In this document: piece after piece, positions 3,099 through 46,070 of the stretch
Position numbering within the stretch: the stretch's first letter is position 1
Layout: each line of letters opens with the position of its first letter
Assembly (NCBI GenBank): GCA_002842035.1
Contig: PHBP01000006.1
Span: 147,688-211,687, forward strand
From: Candidatus Cloacimonetes bacterium HGW-Cloacimonetes-2
GTDB lineage: Bacteria > Cloacimonadota > Cloacimonadia > Cloacimonadales > Cloacimonadaceae
DNA length: 64,000 bases
Reading direction: 5' to 3'
Position numbers and translations under genes: made by a program
Notes under the pieces: model-generated
Told to the model about the DNA's origin: nothing
Databases searched by the model: none
What the model saw: the letters and a program-made list of their open reading frames with translations, nothing else

Positions 3099-3442
3099 TC
3101 CCTGCTTGAATTCTTATGTGATCCCCTAGTGATCCCCTAGTGATCCCCTAGTGGCGACAAGGGGATCGCAAGTGCAGTGTCAGAGTATTGCCTTAGGATT
3201 CAATAGGGGAGATTTTCACAAGGGGTAAAGGAGAAAGGAGTGGTGGTGTGGGAGCGACATCTTGTCTCTCGGAAGGACTGTGCGTCAGGATGACGCACCC
3301 ACATGTTTTTAACTCATACAAATACCGGTGTAAAAGGTATCATCGGCGATAGTATGCACTGGTATTTGTATAAGGCACAACACGAAGCGAACTGCGAACG
3401 CTGTGGCAAATCAGGAGATACCACGCCAGATATGGCGGAGCT
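3099..3442 (+). repeat. Composite modular repeat copy 1 (CMR1): modules A, E, B-deleted, D
   Basis: This starts 8 nt after the preceding stop and fills the 510-nt gap before the C25 gene. Module A (3099-3180) has three tandem GTGATCCCCTA units and an inverted half ending in AAGGGGATC. Module E (3249-3303) has hairpins GAGCGACA/TGTCTCTC and GTGCGTCA/TGACGCAC. The B remnant (3308-3371) keeps only its last stem, ATACAAATACC/GGTATTTGTAT. Module D is 3385-3442. The linker between A and E is rich in AAAGGAG words. Bases 3443-3590 have no feature that I recognise. No coding potential is credited to the gap. Confidence 0.85.
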
Positions 3443-3600
3443 CAGCGAACCCCGGGTACAGGTATCGTAGAAACGTTTTCCGTATTACCCCCGATTGTCC
3501 CCTCATATCAACGAATAATCCTGAAATATGTACGAGAAAGGAATGTATATTGCAAATCTTTCAGCCCAATATTTGTAGTAATTCAAATAAAGGAGACCTT

Positions 3601-6600
3601 ATGCCCAAAACAAGGCTCAGTGTGTGTTTACTGATCATCCTGATGATCGGCCTTTTCTCCGTTTTGTCCGCTCAAAGCAGGCAAATCAGCATTTCTAATG
3701 GCGCCAGCCAGACCAGATTGCTCTCCGGCAATGACTTTGGTATGGAACTTCAGTTCAACGTAGGTGAGCTCAGGCTCGAAACTGTACAGACCCGTGGCGG
3801 GAGCTTCGACGAAATCTCAATCGAAGGCTTTAGCCACAGCAACCGGATCGGCGAGCCCAAGCTCCCCGTATCCACCAAGATCGTAGCTGTACCAATTGGT
3901 GCAGAGCTAAGTTTTGAAGTCATCTCCAGGCAGAGCTTACGCCTGGATGGCAGCGATAGCAGATTGCAGCACAAACTATTACCCGTGCAGCTTTCTGTGT
4001 CCAAATCCGATGATCCCGCGCTCGTACCCTTCAAGCAAAATGAAGAGCTTTACAACCGTGATGAATTCACCGGTGGCGAGCTTTTCAGGATTGAGGAGAT
4101 CGGCTATATGCGTGGACTTCGCCTCTTCCAGTTTTATTTTGAACCCATCCGTTACAATCCTGTGAGCGGTGAGCTTCAGGTGACTTACGATGCCACTATC
4201 CGCGTGAACTTCAACAATCCTGATCTGATTGCAACGCAGGATCTGCTGGCACGCACTGCTTCTTATGAATATGAAGCACTTTACGCGCAGACGGTTTTCA
4301 ATTGGGATACCACAAACCGCGCCAGCCTGGTGCGTTATCCCACCAAGATGCTCATTCTATGCCCTCCGAACTACACCGATGAGATGGCACCCTTTGTGAC
4401 CTGGAAAAAGCAACAGGGTTACAACGTGACGGTGACCACAGTCGGCACCGGCGGTACAATCGCCAATACGACAGCAGCCATAAATACATATATGGCATCC
4501 GTTTGGAGCGCTGCAACCGCACAGGATCCCGCTCCGACCTATCTGATAATCGTAGGCGATACTTCCACCAGCGGAGACAATATCATCGCCAATACCGGCG
4601 TAACAGGGTCTCACGTTACGGATCTGACCTATGTCCGCCTGAACGGTACAGATTATGTCCCGGATATGTATTACGGACGTTTCTCTGTCGCGAGCGGAAC
4701 AGAGCTTACCAATGCCGTAAACAAGACCATCACCTTTGAAAAGACTCAGATGCCCGATCTGACTTATCTGGGAAAAGCAGTGATGATAGCCGGTGTGGAC
4801 AGCGGTTTTGGTCCGACCCACGGTAATGGCGCCATCAATTATGGTACCACAAACTACTTTAATAGTAGTCAGGGCATTACCTCGAATACATATCTTTATC
4901 CTGCCTCAGGCTCGAGCGATGCCACGATCATAGCCAATGCCAATGAAGGTAGAGGTTATATAAACTACACAGCCCACGGCAGCGAGACTTCCTGGGCTGA
5001 TCCCACCTTCTCAGTTAGTGATGTCAACTCTATGACCAATACCAACAAGTATGGTGTGATGGTGGGTAATTGCTGCGTTACCAATGCCTTTGGCACAGGT
5101 GTTTGCTTTGGTGAATCAATCATCCGCAAAGCCAATGCCGGTGGCGTTGCCTACATTGGTGGCACAAACAACACCTATTGGGACGAGGATTACTGGTGGG
5201 CAGTGGGTGCCAAAGGATCTGCCAATGGTACTGCTCCTGCCTATGATGCCACCAAGCTGGGTGCTTACGATGCGATGTTCCATACTCACAGCGAAGCATT
5301 CACAGATTGGGCTCAGACCACAGGTGATGCAGTCTATATGGGAAACCTTGCGGTTGCTCAGGGAAATAGCTCCAGAACAAACTATTACTGGGAAATCTAC
5401 TCCATTATGGGCGATCCTTCCCTGATGCCTTACTTTGGAGTTCCCACTGTCAATACAGCTAGTTTCCCATCCACAATCCTGATTGGCGCGACATCCATCA
5501 CAGTGACTGCCACACCTTATTCCAGAGTAGCCCTCAGTATGGGCGGCACACTTTACGGAACAGGTATTGTGCCTGCCGGCGGAAGCCTCACTCTAGCAAT
5601 TACACCTTTTAGCACCACAGGCACAGCTAACCTGGTGATCACTGCTCAGGACAAGATCACTCGTATCGAGAATATCACTATCGCTCCCAATAGCGGGCCT
5701 TATATGAACGTCTCGGCGATTGTTTACAGCGATACAAACAATAGCAGCCCTGAATACAATGAGACCGGCAGATTCAGCCCGACCTTCCACAATGTGGGCT
5801 CAGTTACCGCTACCAATGTGACTGCTACGCTTAGCTGCAGCACTCCGGGATTTACGATCAGTGATGGTACAGAAAACATTGCCAGCCTTGCTGCAGGCGC
5901 TACCAGCACAATCAACAATGCCTTTACCTTTGGCATCCCCAATGGTATCGCTGATGGTACGATGGCTGCCTTTACGATTACGATGGTAAGTGGCAGCAAT
6001 ACCTGGGTGCACAATTTCACTCTCGAGATCAATGCACCGGCGCTTGTCTTTGCCAATATGACAATCAGCGATCCCTCAGGAAACAACAACGGCAGGCTCG
6101 ATCCGGGCGAAACCGTTACTGTCACGATGCCTTTGAACAACACAGGCGGAGCTTCGAGCCCTTCAGGCACTGCGACTCTATCCTGCGCTACCCCCGGAAT
6201 CACCATCAATACAGGCACTGCGAACTTTGCAGCTATCTCAGCAGGTGGCAATGCCAATCTGAGTTTCAGCATTACCGCAGCAGCCGGTATTACTATAGGT
6301 ACTATCGTCAATATCAACTTCAACGCTACAGCGGGTTCTTATACAGCAAGCAAAGCACAGTCAGTGACTGCCGGTATCATCCTGGAAGACTTTGAGACAG
6401 GAAACTTTAACAGCTTCTCCTGGGTGATGGGTGGAACTCTGCCCTGGGTTATAGACAATACCACTGCCCAGACCGGGACCTATTCTGCAAAGAGCGGAGC
6501 TATCACACACAGTCAAAGCACTACGATGGAGACCACCAGGGTGCTTTCGAGTACAGGTGATCTCAGCTTCTGGTACAAAGTCTCCTCTGAATCAAGCTAT

Positions 6601-9597
6601 GACTACCTGAAGTTCTATATCGATGGAGTAATGCAGAACCAATGGTCCGGCACCGTAGATTGGACGCAGATTACTATAAGCCTTGCGGCTGGTACACGAG
6701 TCCTGAAGTGGGAATATATGAAGGATGGAAGTGTGGATAGCGGGAGCAACTGCGCCTGGATCGACAACATCATCTTCCCTGCTTCTACTTCTCCCAGTGT
6801 TTACAATCCTCCCCAAAACTTTGCTGCTGTCCCCGGCAATGGCTTTGTAACACTCAACTGGCAAGCACCTGTCTCCGGGACACCCACAGGCTATAAGATA
6901 TTCAGGAATAGCAGCCTGCTTACCACGGTGACTGGTCTTACATATACAGATAATGCAGTCGTCAATGAGACAAGCTACAGCTACTACCTCAAGGCTGTCT
7001 ATACAGGTGGTGAATCTGATCCCACTGCAACCGTAAACGTTACTCCTACAGCAGTAGTAGCGACTGAGTTTATCATCGGTACAGGCACTACTGCGACCGG
7101 TCTTACCACTGCCTCACCCATAAATGTCTATTATCAAAGCTTGCACGGACAATCTGTCTATACAGCAGCAGAGCTCAATGCAGCAGGCATCCTGGGACCG
7201 ATAAACATCACTCAGCTTGGCTTCAACATTACCAGCTTGCCTGATCGGAATATGCCAAACTTCCAGGTACGGATGGGACACACAACAGCAGCCAACGTAG
7301 CCAGTTGGATTTCTACTGGTCTCACTCAGGTATGGTCCAGCGCAAGCTATCTGCCTACAGCAACAGGCTGGAATATGTACACTCTCAGCACTCCTTTCCT
7401 CTGGAACGGAACTGACAACATAGTGATAGATACAGCCTTCGGTCTGATTGGATCATATACTCAAACCGGTGCAATCCAATACACCACAGTCACCAACGGC
7501 TATCGCTACAATCGTAGTGATAGTGCTGATCAGACTGCTGTTTTCACAGGTGGATCCACCTCTACGAACAGACCCAATCTGAAAGTAATGGTAGCTCCCA
7601 ATGCAGCCGGCCCTGCGATAGCAGTAAGCCCCACCACTCTCAGTTATGGTGATGTAGCTGTTGGCACCAGTAGCGCGCAGCAATTTACCATCTCAAACTC
7701 CGGTGATCAGACTCTTACAGGCAGCATCACCACCCCCACAGGCTACACTGTGAGCCTTGTGAGCAGAAACGAAGTCGAAACCCCCGTGATTGCCAGCCGC
7801 AACACCCTCTCCTATAGCGTCAATGCCGGCTCGCAAAAGACCTACTCACTCAGCTTTGCTCCCACTGCTGCCACTGCATACAACGGCAACGTCTCAATCA
7901 GTTCCAACGCCACCGACAATCCCAGCCGTAGCATCGCGGTTTCAGGCAATGGCTTCATTCCGCCCACCATCGGTCTCAGCACCGAATCCCTCTACACAGA
8001 GCTGGCTCCCGGAGATGAAGATGCTCAAAGCTTCACTATCGTAAACACCGGCTCTCAAGCTCTGAACTACAGTATCAGTATGCAAGAGCTTCGACAGGGA
8101 CGCATCCCTACGAGCGCAAACGGTAACAGCAGAACTGATGACCGTAGCATTGCCGGCAGCACTCTGGTGCACGATACAGGGCTTTACCTGCCAGGCACCA
8201 CAGTGGATTGGACTTTCACCGTCACCAATGCCAGCACGGATACCGAATGGCTGGAAGACGTCATTATCACTTTCCCCGCAGGAGTTACGGTCAATAGCGC
8301 CACAAACTTCGTAGGCGGCTCAGGTGGAGATATGATCGCCAATACCACCAGCGGCAGCGGTATCACCATCACTTGGCATGGTGAAGATGGTTCTGGCTGG
8401 GGCGTAGTGCAGGGCAGTCAATCTGCAAGCGCCACTGTAAACGTCACAATAGCACCCGGCGCTGCCGGTAACCTCAGCTTGCCCTACACGATCAATGGCG
8501 ACATCTATGGAGCCGAACCTCACACCCTGAGTGATACAATCGTTCTGACTCAGGACGTCCCGCCCGTGGAATGGCTAAGCCTCCTGCCTCTATCCGGCAG
8601 CATCCCCGCCTCAGGCAATGCTGAAATAGCAGTCAACTTCTCTGCCATCGGTATGGAAGCAGGCACCTACGAAGCACTGATCACCATCAGTTCCAATGAT
8701 CCTGCCAATCCGACCATGAGCGTTACAGCCACGATGGATGTCGTAGGCAATCTGAATCACGCACCCCAGATCAACCTGCCCGATAGCTTCAGCTTTGACA
8801 AAAACGGCAGCTTGAATCAGAGCTTCAGCTCCTACGTGACGGATCAGGACAACGATCCTCTCACTCTCTCAGTGGTAGGAAACACCATTATCCAAGTCCA
8901 GATCAATGGCCTCAGCGTTACCTTCACTGCCCCTCAAAACTGGATCGGCAGCGAAATCCTGACCTTCACCGTGAGCGACGGACTGCTGACAAATGCAGAT
9001 TACGTTACCGTTACAGTCAATCCTGTGAACAGCCCTGCCTGGAACCCCGTGATCTATCCCAACAACCCCGCAACTCTCTACGCTGTCGTCACAATCGATA
9101 ACATCCCGGCTCAGCTCAACGACATGGTAGCCGCTTTTGTCGGCACTGAATGCCGCGCCACCGGTGAGATCGTGATGATCGACCGCAGCGTTGCCTATAC
9201 CACTCTGCTGGTAAATCTGGCTGCTCCCGGCGAAACCGTCAGCTTCAAGATCTATTCCTATTCTCAGGATACGATCTATCCCGTGGCTGATCTGATCTCG
9301 ATGACTTACGGCGAGGTCTATGGAGAGGACAGTCCTGTCCCGCTCAATGGCACAAACAACATCGTAATCGCCGCCCCTGCCCCAGCCATCCTGAGCCTTG
9401 GCTCTGTGATGCGGATCACATGGGATGCAGTGACTTATGCCAACAACTACAAAATCTACTCCTGCGAAACTCCCGATGGAAGCTACACTCTGATCGGATC
9501 CACCCCCAATCTCTACTATGAGATCAATCCCGATACGATGTGCAAGTTCTACAAGGTAGTCGCAGAGCAGATCATCCCTGTCAAGGCAGGAAGATAA
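3601..9597 (+). CDS. Secreted gingipain-like C25 cysteine peptidase, multidomain
   Basis: The protein has 1,998 residues. The ATG at 3601 follows AAAGGAG with good spacing and opens a signal peptide (residues 1-24); an upstream in-frame ATG at 3403 would add a non-signal extension through repeat sequence and is rejected. After a C25-type propeptide (~25-240), the peptidase domain (~249-605) shows TAHGSETSW with H459 and GNCC with C491/C492. The H459-C492 spacing of 33 equals that between the catalytic His and Cys of gingipains. Downstream lie CARDB-like segments, a cleaved-adhesin/MAM-like module (~927-1060), Fn3 (~1069-1150), a module shared with neighbours (~1157-1333), a Hydin-like Ig domain, a cadherin-like segment (~1719-1810) and a final Fn3-like module (~1933-1998). 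It lacks the 'PNPF' C-terminal domain. It is a likely surface or secreted protease, and its stop overlaps the M14 gene start. Confidence 0.9.
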   Translation: MPKTRLSVCLLIILMIGLFSVLSAQSRQISISNGASQTRLLSGNDFGMELQFNVGELRLETVQTRGGSFDEISIEGFSHSNRIGEPKLPVSTKIVAVPIGAELSFEVISRQSLRLDGSDSRLQHKLLPVQLSVSKSDDPALVPFKQNEELYNRDEFTGGELFRIEEIGYMRGLRLFQFYFEPIRYNPVSGELQVTYDATIRVNFNNPDLIATQDLLARTASYEYEALYAQTVFNWDTTNRASLVRYPTKMLILCPPNYTDEMAPFVTWKKQQGYNVTVTTVGTGGTIANTTAAINTYMASVWSAATAQDPAPTYLIIVGDTSTSGDNIIANTGVTGSHVTDLTYVRLNGTDYVPDMYYGRFSVASGTELTNAVNKTITFEKTQMPDLTYLGKAVMIAGVDSGFGPTHGNGAINYGTTNYFNSSQGITSNTYLYPASGSSDATIIANANEGRGYINYTAHGSETSWADPTFSVSDVNSMTNTNKYGVMVGNCCVTNAFGTGVCFGESIIRKANAGGVAYIGGTNNTYWDEDYWWAVGAKGSANGTAPAYDATKLGAYDAMFHTHSEAFTDWAQTTGDAVYMGNLAVAQGNSSRTNYYWEIYSIMGDPSLMPYFGVPTVNTASFPSTILIGATSITVTATPYSRVALSMGGTLYGTGIVPAGGSLTLAITPFSTTGTANLVITAQDKITRIENITIAPNSGPYMNVSAIVYSDTNNSSPEYNETGRFSPTFHNVGSVTATNVTATLSCSTPGFTISDGTENIASLAAGATSTINNAFTFGIPNGIADGTMAAFTITMVSGSNTWVHNFTLEINAPALVFANMTISDPSGNNNGRLDPGETVTVTMPLNNTGGASSPSGTATLSCATPGITINTGTANFAAISAGGNANLSFSITAAAGITIGTIVNINFNATAGSYTASKAQSVTAGIILEDFETGNFNSFSWVMGGTLPWVIDNTTAQTGTYSAKSGAITHSQSTTMETTRVLSSTGDLSFWYKVSSESSYDYLKFYIDGVMQNQWSGTVDWTQITISLAAGTRVLKWEYMKDGSVDSGSNCAWIDNIIFPASTSPSVYNPPQNFAAVPGNGFVTLNWQAPVSGTPTGYKIFRNSSLLTTVTGLTYTDNAVVNETSYSYYLKAVYTGGESDPTATVNVTPTAVVATEFIIGTGTTATGLTTASPINVYYQSLHGQSVYTAAELNAAGILGPINITQLGFNITSLPDRNMPNFQVRMGHTTAANVASWISTGLTQVWSSASYLPTATGWNMYTLSTPFLWNGTDNIVIDTAFGLIGSYTQTGAIQYTTVTNGYRYNRSDSADQTAVFTGGSTSTNRPNLKVMVAPNAAGPAIAVSPTTLSYGDVAVGTSSAQQFTISNSGDQTLTGSITTPTGYTVSLVSRNEVETPVIASRNTLSYSVNAGSQKTYSLSFAPTAATAYNGNVSISSNATDNPSRSIAVSGNGFIPPTIGLSTESLYTELAPGDEDAQSFTIVNTGSQALNYSISMQELRQGRIPTSANGNSRTDDRSIAGSTLVHDTGLYLPGTTVDWTFTVTNASTDTEWLEDVIITFPAGVTVNSATNFVGGSGGDMIANTTSGSGITITWHGEDGSGWGVVQGSQSASATVNVTIAPGAAGNLSLPYTINGDIYGAEPHTLSDTIVLTQDVPPVEWLSLLPLSGSIPASGNAEIAVNFSAIGMEAGTYEALITISSNDPANPTMSVTATMDVVGNLNHAPQINLPDSFSFDKNGSLNQSFSSYVTDQDNDPLTLSVVGNTIIQVQINGLSVTFTAPQNWIGSEILTFTVSDGLLTNADYVTVTVNPVNSPAWNPVIYPNNPATLYAVVTIDNIPAQLNDMVAAFVGTECRATGEIVMIDRSVAYTTLLVNLAAPGETVSFKIYSYSQDTIYPVADLISMTYGEVYGEDSPVPLNGTNNIVIAAPAPAILSLGSVMRITWDAVTYANNYKIYSCETPDGSYTLIGSTPNLYYEINPDTMCKFYKVVAEQIIPVKAGR

Positions 9598-11512: not shown

Positions 11513-12034
11513 TCTTTGAATTCTCTCGTGATCCCCTTGTGATCCCCTAGTGATTCCCTAGTGACGACAAGGGGATCGCCAGTGCAGTGCGTGTGGTTTG
11601 CCTGATGGTTCAAGGAGGAAGAATTTAACAAGGAGTAAAGGAGAAAGGAGTTTCCTTTACCACAGAGAAAGCGCTGAGCGCTAAGCGCAGTGGGGAAGTG
11701 ATGGAGTGGTAGTGTGGTGTTGTGGGAGCGACATCTTGTCGCTCTGAAGGACTGTGCGTCAGGATGACGCACCCAAATGTTTTGACCTATAATTCTGCCT
11801 TGCCAGTCTCGAATTGACAAGCAGGTCATTCCCGGCAGGATTATGAGTTAAAACAATGCAAGCAGTAGTAGCTGGGTACTATGCGCAGGGCTTTCGTTTT
11901 AACTCAAACAAATGCCAATTGAAAGGGATCATCGGCGATAGATTGCACAGGCATTTGTTTAAGTCAAGACAGGGGGAGCGATCTGCGATCACTGTGGCAA
12001 ATCAAGAGTTTGCCACCCCAGATATGGCGCAGAG
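11513..12034 (+). repeat. Composite modular repeat copy 2 (CMR2), the fullest copy: A-E-B-D
   Basis: Module A (11513-11590) has GTGATCCCC units and the inverted AAGGGGATC half. An AAGGAGTAAAGGAG linker follows. Module E (11724-11772) has two perfect 8-bp hairpins, GAGCGACA/TGTCGCTC and GTGCGTCA/TGACGCAC. Module B (11779-11970) is the cloverleaf listed separately. Module D (11977-12034) holds the hairpin GTGGCAAA/TTTGCCAC followed by CCCAGATATGGCG. This fills the gap between the peptidase terminator and the PFOR promoter region. No coding function is credited, though spurious reading frames cross it. Confidence 0.88.
11779..11970 (+). other. Cloverleaf element (module B), full copy
   Basis: Four inverted-repeat stems are nested as in a cloverleaf. 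The outer arms are GTTTTGACCTA (11779-11789) and TAAGTCAAGAC (11960-11970). Inside are ATAATTCTGCC/GGCAGGATTAT (11789-11799 with 11834-11844), TGAGTTAAAAC/GTTTTAACTCA (11844-11854 with 11896-11906, perfect) and AAACAAATGCC/GGCATTTGTTT (11906-11916 with 11950-11960, perfect). Stems share end bases, so the elements abut. It could be a structured RNA, or a non-autonomous mobile element whose outer arms act as terminal inverted repeats. No target-site duplication is visible. Confidence 0.75.
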
Positions 12035-45536: not shown

Positions 45537-46070
45537 AATTTCTCCCTGCTTGAATGCTCTGGAGATCCTCTTGTGATCCCCTAGTGATTCCCTAGTGGCG
45601 ACAAGGGGATCTCCAGAGCAGTGCGAGGCTTTTGCCTTGGGGTTGAAGGAGAGGGCGCAGCGTGCTGCAGTGATCAGTGATCAGTGAACAGAGGGAATCG
45701 GAATGCGCTGCGCGCGGTTGTTTTAAATGGATGAATGACGGAGGGGGGGGCAGGACTGCGTCATGGCTGTTAGAAGTAAGCTGTTAGAAGTAAGTGCTGC
45801 ACATTGTTCGAAGATTGTTTCTCCGCAAAGCACTACGCGCAGTACTACAAACTTACCACGCTATTGTTTTGACTTATAATTCTGCCTTGCCAGTCTCGAA
45901 TTGACAAGCAGGTCTTGATCGGCAGGATTATGAGTTAAAAACAATGCAAGCAATTGTAGCCGGTAATGATGCATCAGGCTTTCGTTTTAACTCATACAAA
46001 TGCCGGTGAAAGGGATTCATCAGTGATAGATAGCACAGGCATTTGTTTAAGTCAAAACAGGGGGAGTGCT
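45537..46070 (+). repeat. Composite modular repeat copy 4 (CMR4): module A, inverted-repeat block, module B
   Basis: Module A (45543-45622) has GTGATCCCC and GTGATTCCC units. Bases 45537-45843 match the reverse complement of 52338-52676 almost base for base for the first ~70 nt and closely thereafter (AGAGGGCGCAGCGTGCTGCA, AACAGAGGGAATCGGAATGC). Then comes cloverleaf module B (45866-46058), listed separately. Module E is replaced by unrelated sequence and D is missing. No coding function is credited to this 614-nt gap. Confidence 0.88.
45866..46058 (+). other. Cloverleaf element (module B), second full copy
   Basis: Outer arms GTTTTGACTTA (45866-45876) and TAAGTCAAAAC (46048-46058) pair perfectly. 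Inner stems are ATAATTCTGCC/GGCAGGATTAT (45876-45886 with 45921-45931), TGAGTTAAAA/TTTTAACTCA (45931-45940 with 45985-45994) and ACAAATGCC/GGCATTTGT (45996-46004 with 46038-46046). Loop sequences differ from the copy at 11779-11970 more than the stems do. Confidence 0.75.

Follow-up and report, generated by a model that had tools for sequence, protein, structure and literature searches.

The window, a stretch of 64,000 nucleotides from Candidatus Cloacimonetes bacterium HGW-Cloacimonetes-2, carries two full copies of a repeated element and a third, deleted copy, with the stems that the initial annotation had described for them. The matches to the hairpin units within these copies were obtained with a covariance model, R1, that was built from the hairpin unit. 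The features are:

45866..45942, plus strand: unit A, a hairpin (R1 match of 74.5 bits, E 4.7e-15); according to the pair table it consists of the X arm GTTTTGACTTA, the stem TAATTCTGCC/GGCAGGATTA and the Y' arm TGAGTTAAAAAC with one extra A
45943..45983, plus strand: spacer of 41 nt between unit A and unit B
45984..46058, minus strand: unit B, the inverted unit (R1 match of 82 bits, E 7.9e-17), which on the minus strand reads GTTTTGACTTA-AACAAATGCC...GGCATTTGTA-TGAGTTAAAAC
11779..11970, plus strand: second full copy, with unit A at 11779-11854 (plus), a spacer of 41 nt and unit B at 11896-11970 (minus)
3305..3381, minus strand: deleted copy, unit B only (R1 unit match)
11721..11775, plus strand: module A, a GTGG-footed REP doublet (GTGG-GAGCGACATCTTGTCGCTC ... 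GTGCGTCAGGATGACGCAC-CCA), which is a canonical REP and not part of the element
3247..3303, plus strand: module A beside the deleted copy
11979..12028, plus strand: module C (GCGATCTGCGATCACTGTGGCAAATC...), which across the genome was seen exclusively to the right of element copies

A search of the organism's own genome (G000; 2.5 Mb in 14 contigs, 99.55% complete) for the 192-base element gave 27 matches, which represent 25 scattered loci because two of the matches are one hairpin hitting itself in reverse. Sixteen of these loci are full-length, and single-unit and broken copies are common. All copies with a checked neighbourhood are intergenic, and both full copies in the window lie downstream of a gene. 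Among the full copies of the genome the stems are on average about 92% identical and the three loops 50-67%, while the spacer between the units measures 40-41 nt in every one of them. No target duplication was seen in the flanks of the element copies, and a query made of the joined flanks, representing the empty site, found no contiguous match. An exact 21-mer search of genome_contigs gave no match.

The plus strand of 45866-46058 folds into a four-stem cloverleaf of -59.9 kcal/mol (z = -4.62; 1 of 200 shuffled sequences folds as well). The stems had been described as an outer one of 11 bp enclosing three of 9-11 bp, mostly perfect. This holds for the outer stem (11/11 paired) and for the lengths of the others, but stem 1 (10 bp) includes a G.U pair, stem 2 (11 bp) has a bulged A and stem 3 (9/10 paired) has a T.T at its base. 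The strength of the fold, the intergenic location downstream of genes and the better conservation of stems than of loops all favour an orphan structured RNA, that is, a transcribed cloverleaf, for instance at gene 3' ends, whose stems are under selection for RNA pairing.

The anatomy of the arms points elsewhere. The order within the element is X - stem 1 - Y' - spacer - Y - stem 3 - X', in which X is GTTTTGACTTA and Y' is TGAGTTAAAAC, and Y and X' are their inverses. When the second half is read on the minus strand, X is again at the start and Y' at the end. The element is thus one hairpin unit of 75-77 nt, GTTTTGACTTA-stem-loop-stem-TGAGTTAAAAC, present twice in inverted orientation. The consensus of the unit runs from 5'-GTTTTGACTYA through a 10-bp stem of free sequence, its loop and the returning strand of the stem to TRAGTTAAAAC-3'. 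The inner stems of the two units are unlike (TAATTCTGCC versus AACAAATGCC). Pairing of X with Y' leaves two non-Watson-Crick pairs in essentially all copies, at position 6 (G.T) and position 10 (T.G), whereas X-X' and Y-Y' pair perfectly because both units carry identical ends. The cloverleaf arises because two inverted units share equal arms around unequal inner stems; it is a by-product of the inverted arrangement, and a signature of mobile DNA rather than of a new RNA. Folded as single-stranded DNA, the cloverleaf and the two unit hairpins are close in energy. The outer arms, which had been read as possible terminal inverted repeats, are together with the inner arms the two ends of one unit that occurs twice.

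The proposed selection on structure was based on a double change in the deleted copy, ATACAAATACC/GGTATTTGTAT, that keeps the pairing. The change is present when the copy at 11779 is taken as reference. However, the copy at 45866 itself already reads ATACAAATGCC (T.T), and in a sister copy (G000:C1:142515) ATACAAATACC faces an unchanged GGCATTTGTTT, so that only the left-hand side has changed. Unpaired intermediates therefore persist, and a comparison of these copies indicates that the double change arose stepwise through unpaired states. The final state could be accounted for equally well by selection and by a single templated correction between the arms of the hairpin. The deleted copy at 3305..3381 itself probably goes back to a deletion that joined two direct repeats, X (TTTTGACTTA) and Y (TTTTAACTCA). 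Hybrid arms occur in single-unit copies (TTTTGACTCA at C1:142515, TGAGTCAAAAC at C14:47270), and their composition is that expected after deletion between one or the other pair of direct repeats, X and Y or Y' and X'.

The covariation analysis of the genomic copies that had been suggested as a check showed nothing above the shuffled alignments, with 0 double-changed cells among the 16 full copies. Stem 2 at L011:400-607 does contain a real double change (AAAAC/GTTTT to TAAAC/GTTTA), which gaps in the alignment hide. Across species, the unit hairpin shows 127 double-changed cells against 36 in the shuffled alignments (maximum 53 in 1000 shuffles); it is this excess that matters and not a p-value, as the shuffles ignore relatedness. 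In 30 dereplicated units 92% of the pairs are standard. The core, TTGAC...GTTAA, is fixed including its G.T pair; changes on both sides affect the three outermost pairs and the inner stem. Where both units of an element are known, pairing at the three outermost positions is preserved within the unit in 63/66 cases and across the cloverleaf in 40/66. Covariation is thus strong between species, where it follows the unit hairpin and not the cloverleaf, and absent within the genome: to judge from these alignments, selection, or the demands of mobility, acts on the unit hairpin. The absence of covariation across the 16 copies, the preservation of the arms as sequence and not as pairing alone, and the outer pairs that follow the unit hairpin between species all argue against a transcribed cloverleaf. 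Rfam likewise gave nothing at the gathering threshold, and only chance-level matches at E below 1.

In the search for relatives, R1 matched 7 further genomes among 60, and in the phylum 11 of 125 genomes including the own one, all of a single bacterial family. The two other genomes of the genus have no match, and the number of units per genome ranges from 0 to more than 30. (The full element as a DNA query, a method too insensitive for this purpose, gave one weak 34-nt match in the 60 relatives.) Genes for Y1 transposases were located with PF01797. In HGW-Cloacimonetes-3 (G025, contig C28) a Y1 gene of 211 aa lies between two complete doublets, and doublets also flank the Y1 gene of UBA5835 (G016). 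Four units are found at the RAYT gene of G010 and one, at a contig end, at that of G009; the RAYT gene of G011 lies inside a tandem array of units, and that of JAKQKB (L179) likewise lies beside units. These six genes form one RAYT clade (support 99/99), in which 6/6 members carry adjoining units. A more distant RAYT, from the Neomarinimicrobiota (L217), is likewise enclosed by two full doublets, one on either side; their arms are CTTGACTTAAG/CTTGAGTTAAG, and they show the same twin of non-Watson-Crick pairs at 6 and 10. The doublets are inverted in G025, G016 and L217 as well. When 72 RAYT loci from named genomes were scanned with a pattern, 18 units turned up where 0.1 were expected. No weight is given to the corrected counts of 5/5 versus 1/24 (hypergeometric p about 5e-5, calculated by hand), because other RAYTs have their own, different units; it seems that each RAYT has its own repeat.

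The transposase protein scores above the cut-off of Pfam Y1_Tnp; its best NCBIfam match is REP_Tyr_transpos, below the cut-off (57.6 versus 80). At 1e-3, the RAYT profile matched no sequence in the PDB. The AlphaFold2 model (17 relatives; pLDDT 82) has as its best fold match in the PDB the RAYT-REP hairpin complex 4ER8 (E 2.8e-9), followed by the IS608 and ISDra2 transposases.

These neighbourhoods bear on two of the alternatives. That the units adjoin a transposase gene in relatives, and vary so widely in number per genome, adds to the evidence against an orphan structured RNA: conservation concerns the sequence of the arms and the transposase gene next door, and we consider the RNA explanation, as raised initially, highly improbable. 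A classical MITE, with terminal inverted repeats and moved by a DDE transposase, would fit the short, multicopy and intergenic nature of the element and its inverted arms. The arms, however, are the ends of internal hairpin units as well as the outer ends, no target duplication was seen, and the enzyme encoded beside the same arms in relatives is a Y1/HUH transposase and not a DDE one. This makes a classical MITE the least probable of the explanations considered, with hardly any chance of being correct, although the original suggestion of a MITE-like element or hairpin DNA came close in that the element belongs to the non-autonomous repeats of the RAYT/REPIN kind. The further suggestion, to look for a transposase between the same repeats, was fruitful in the relatives, where units flank Y1 RAYT genes, but yielded none in the window's genome.

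Thus, the element is very probably a doublet of RAYT-associated palindromes that resembles a REPIN but has no GTAG guide, and as such a non-autonomous mobile repeat of the single-strand-DNA type that is orphaned here. Inverted doublets, singlets as their remnants, and hairpin and 'clover' folds have already been proposed for REPINs (Bertels and Rainey 2011, PMC3116915). As in those, two inverted palindromic units with a spacer occur in many intergenic copies, singlets occur as remnants, and units flank the RAYT gene, here in the relatives. In contrast to REPINs, the units are 71-114 nt long (REPs about 20-40 nt), the two units have different inner stems, and the matching RAYT is absent from the window's genome. 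The tetranucleotide at the 5' foot of the hairpin is variable (ATTG, CCTG, AGAG, CTTG and others), with no GT[AG]G guide, and the units exceed the canonical REP unit size of 21-65 nt (PMC6006769). Because of this lack of a guide and this unit size, the element is not a canonical GTAG REP; it belongs to the GTAG-less RAYT repeats (TIRtron-like), as a variant with a core shared by two phyla and the 6/10 twin.

TIRtrons/TIRYTs are, according to Di Nocera 2013 (PMC3733652), RAYT-like genes between long inverted repeats that are unrelated to GTAG REPs. As described there, they share with the present element that the repeats lack GTAG, are long and in some cases self-complementary, form dimers, have small to moderate copy numbers and enclose a RAYT-like gene; they differ in having a GGGGWSAS motif or unrelated sequences, and in their hosts. 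In the abstract and the sections consulted we found no description of the TTGACTYA core or the 6/10 twin. The atypical RAYT subclasses 2.6 and class 3 (Quentin 2018, PMC6006769) similarly have Y1 RAYT genes flanked by non-GTAG structures that are copied elsewhere in the genome, but they come from Bacteroidetes, Planctomycetes and others (the string 'Cloacimon' does not occur in the paper), and the motifs listed for subclass 2.6 differ from the NHFH and YIHANP of the present protein. In the literature collection searched, no paper naming Cloacimonadota together with REP or RAYT repeats was found.

The E. coli REP and its TnpA_REP (PMC8266576; PDB 4ER8) resemble the present system in the fold of the protein and in that the palindrome is imperfect, with conserved mismatches in the stem. 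In E. coli, these mismatches are required for recognising one strand, and the mismatch bulge and the GTAG are needed for strand-specific action (PMC8266576). The E. coli repeat has GTAG and an AA-GC bulge, whereas here there are two separated pairs, G.T and T.G, and no GTAG. Since GTAG is absent, the twin is the obvious candidate for a strand mark, and by analogy with the bulge of the E. coli REPs it probably serves as such. Pair 6 is G.T in 27/30 dereplicated units. The inspection was extended to hairpins that adjoin RAYTs outside the clade. In 18 of 23 RAYT-flanking hairpins, a list chosen by eye, partly from one genome, and therefore a lead rather than a statistic, a distance of 4 separates the first two non-Watson-Crick pairs, which are mostly those at 6 and 10. 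The twin spacing also occurs in G025_C26 and G025_C12 units of quite different sequence (TGGAGTTC/GAAGTCC). A RAYT superclade of Cloacimonadota and Neomarinimicrobiota might use a GTAG-independent recognition code: a long hairpin would carry two reciprocal wobbles exactly 4 bp apart (6 and 10) that are retained although the neighbouring bases differ (TTGACTTA versus TGGAGTTC), and it would be the mismatch pattern, not a guide tetranucleotide, that singles out the strand for cutting. We offer this code tentatively, as a possibility that falls slightly short of an even chance.

The transposase would bind one strand of a unit in its single-stranded state, such as arises on the lagging strand, and could tell it from the complement by the twin, which gives wobbles on one strand and A.C/C.A mismatches on the other. 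It would then cut next to the hairpin and transfer the doublet to new intergenic sites. A RAYT of the unit-carrying clade was not found in the window's genome, where loss at a contig end is possible. The only Y1_Tnp gene of this genome (C2:456445) falls in a distant clade and is surrounded by GTAG/GTGG REPs. About 45 copies of these REPs are present in the genome, and it is this module that stands just upstream of many element copies. Since no matching transposase gene was found, the copies now present most likely form a population that is orphaned and decaying. If they spread at all, they may do so within larger intergenic composites. The usual composite consists of a GATC module, a middle part, the REP doublet, the element and module C, with order and orientation fixed in about 20/24 copies. 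Because most copies stand in this fixed order, spread by duplication of the composite and spread by transposition are inseparable; composites without the element exist, yet there is no clean junction among them.

The same fixed order and orientation, together with stems that are conserved though the matching RAYT is gone, would also suit an element of any origin that the host has domesticated as intergenic punctuation (a gyrase, IHF or terminator-like site), the composite of GATC module, module A, element and module C being the functional unit. The GATC and A modules are nevertheless also found without the element, single-unit and broken copies are common, and the two other genomes of the genus have no match. 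We therefore judge domestication improbable, if somewhat less so than a structured RNA; the orphaned REPIN-like doublet remains the preferred interpretation.

With this interpretation, an unexplained repeat of an uncultured phylum is placed in a known class of mobile DNA, and GTAG-less RAYT systems with flanking palindromes are added for the Cloacimonadota and Neomarinimicrobiota. It also provides a concrete hypothesis on RAYT strand choice without GTAG that can be tested with oligonucleotides. Furthermore, it carries a warning: what looks like a textbook RNA cloverleaf with compensatory changes can come from two inverted DNA palindromes, and it is the cross-species comparison, not the one within a genome, that tells the two apart.

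Several further observations were made around these loci. In G011, tandem clusters of alternating units of 110-112 nt span about 10 kb and include the RAYT gene (L115, G011:C1:618001-638000), and further clusters lie at C1:668912-670506 and 1006937-1012093. The spaced repeats of this genome hinted at integron attC sites. The attC core boxes are GTTRRRY and RYYYAAC; the arms GTTTTGA and TTAAAAC do not fit these boxes and the units alternate in direction, so this candidate was rejected. Many RAYTs of the wider clade (L217, L189, L190, L192, L186 and L203; Neomarinimicrobiota and Cloacimonadota) are flanked by long palindromes of other sequence, such as AAAACTTGCCCCAAGTTTTT in L192 and ATTGACTCAAT in L190. 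The window's genome has a second, canonical REP system, the GTGG/GTAG-footed REP doublet seen at 11721-11775 and 3247-3303 of the window. At L114:3932-4618 (C2:456445) such doublets lie around, and partly in frame with, the only RAYT-like gene, which itself sits inside or between DNA-methylase-like reading frames.

Within the window, module C (11979-12028 and 3387-3440) contains two more small hairpins (AGCGATCTGCGATCGCT, GTGGCAAA...TTTGCCAC). Another module, GATCCCCTAGTGATCCCCTAG...CAAGGGGATC, occurs at 3117-3172, 11525-11590 and 45566-45620 and has about 40 copies in the genome; it is often found just past a stop codon, 125-330 nt upstream of the element and in the same direction. Finally, a gene for a C25-family peptidase with Ig-like domains (3403-9597) is located downstream of the deleted copy.
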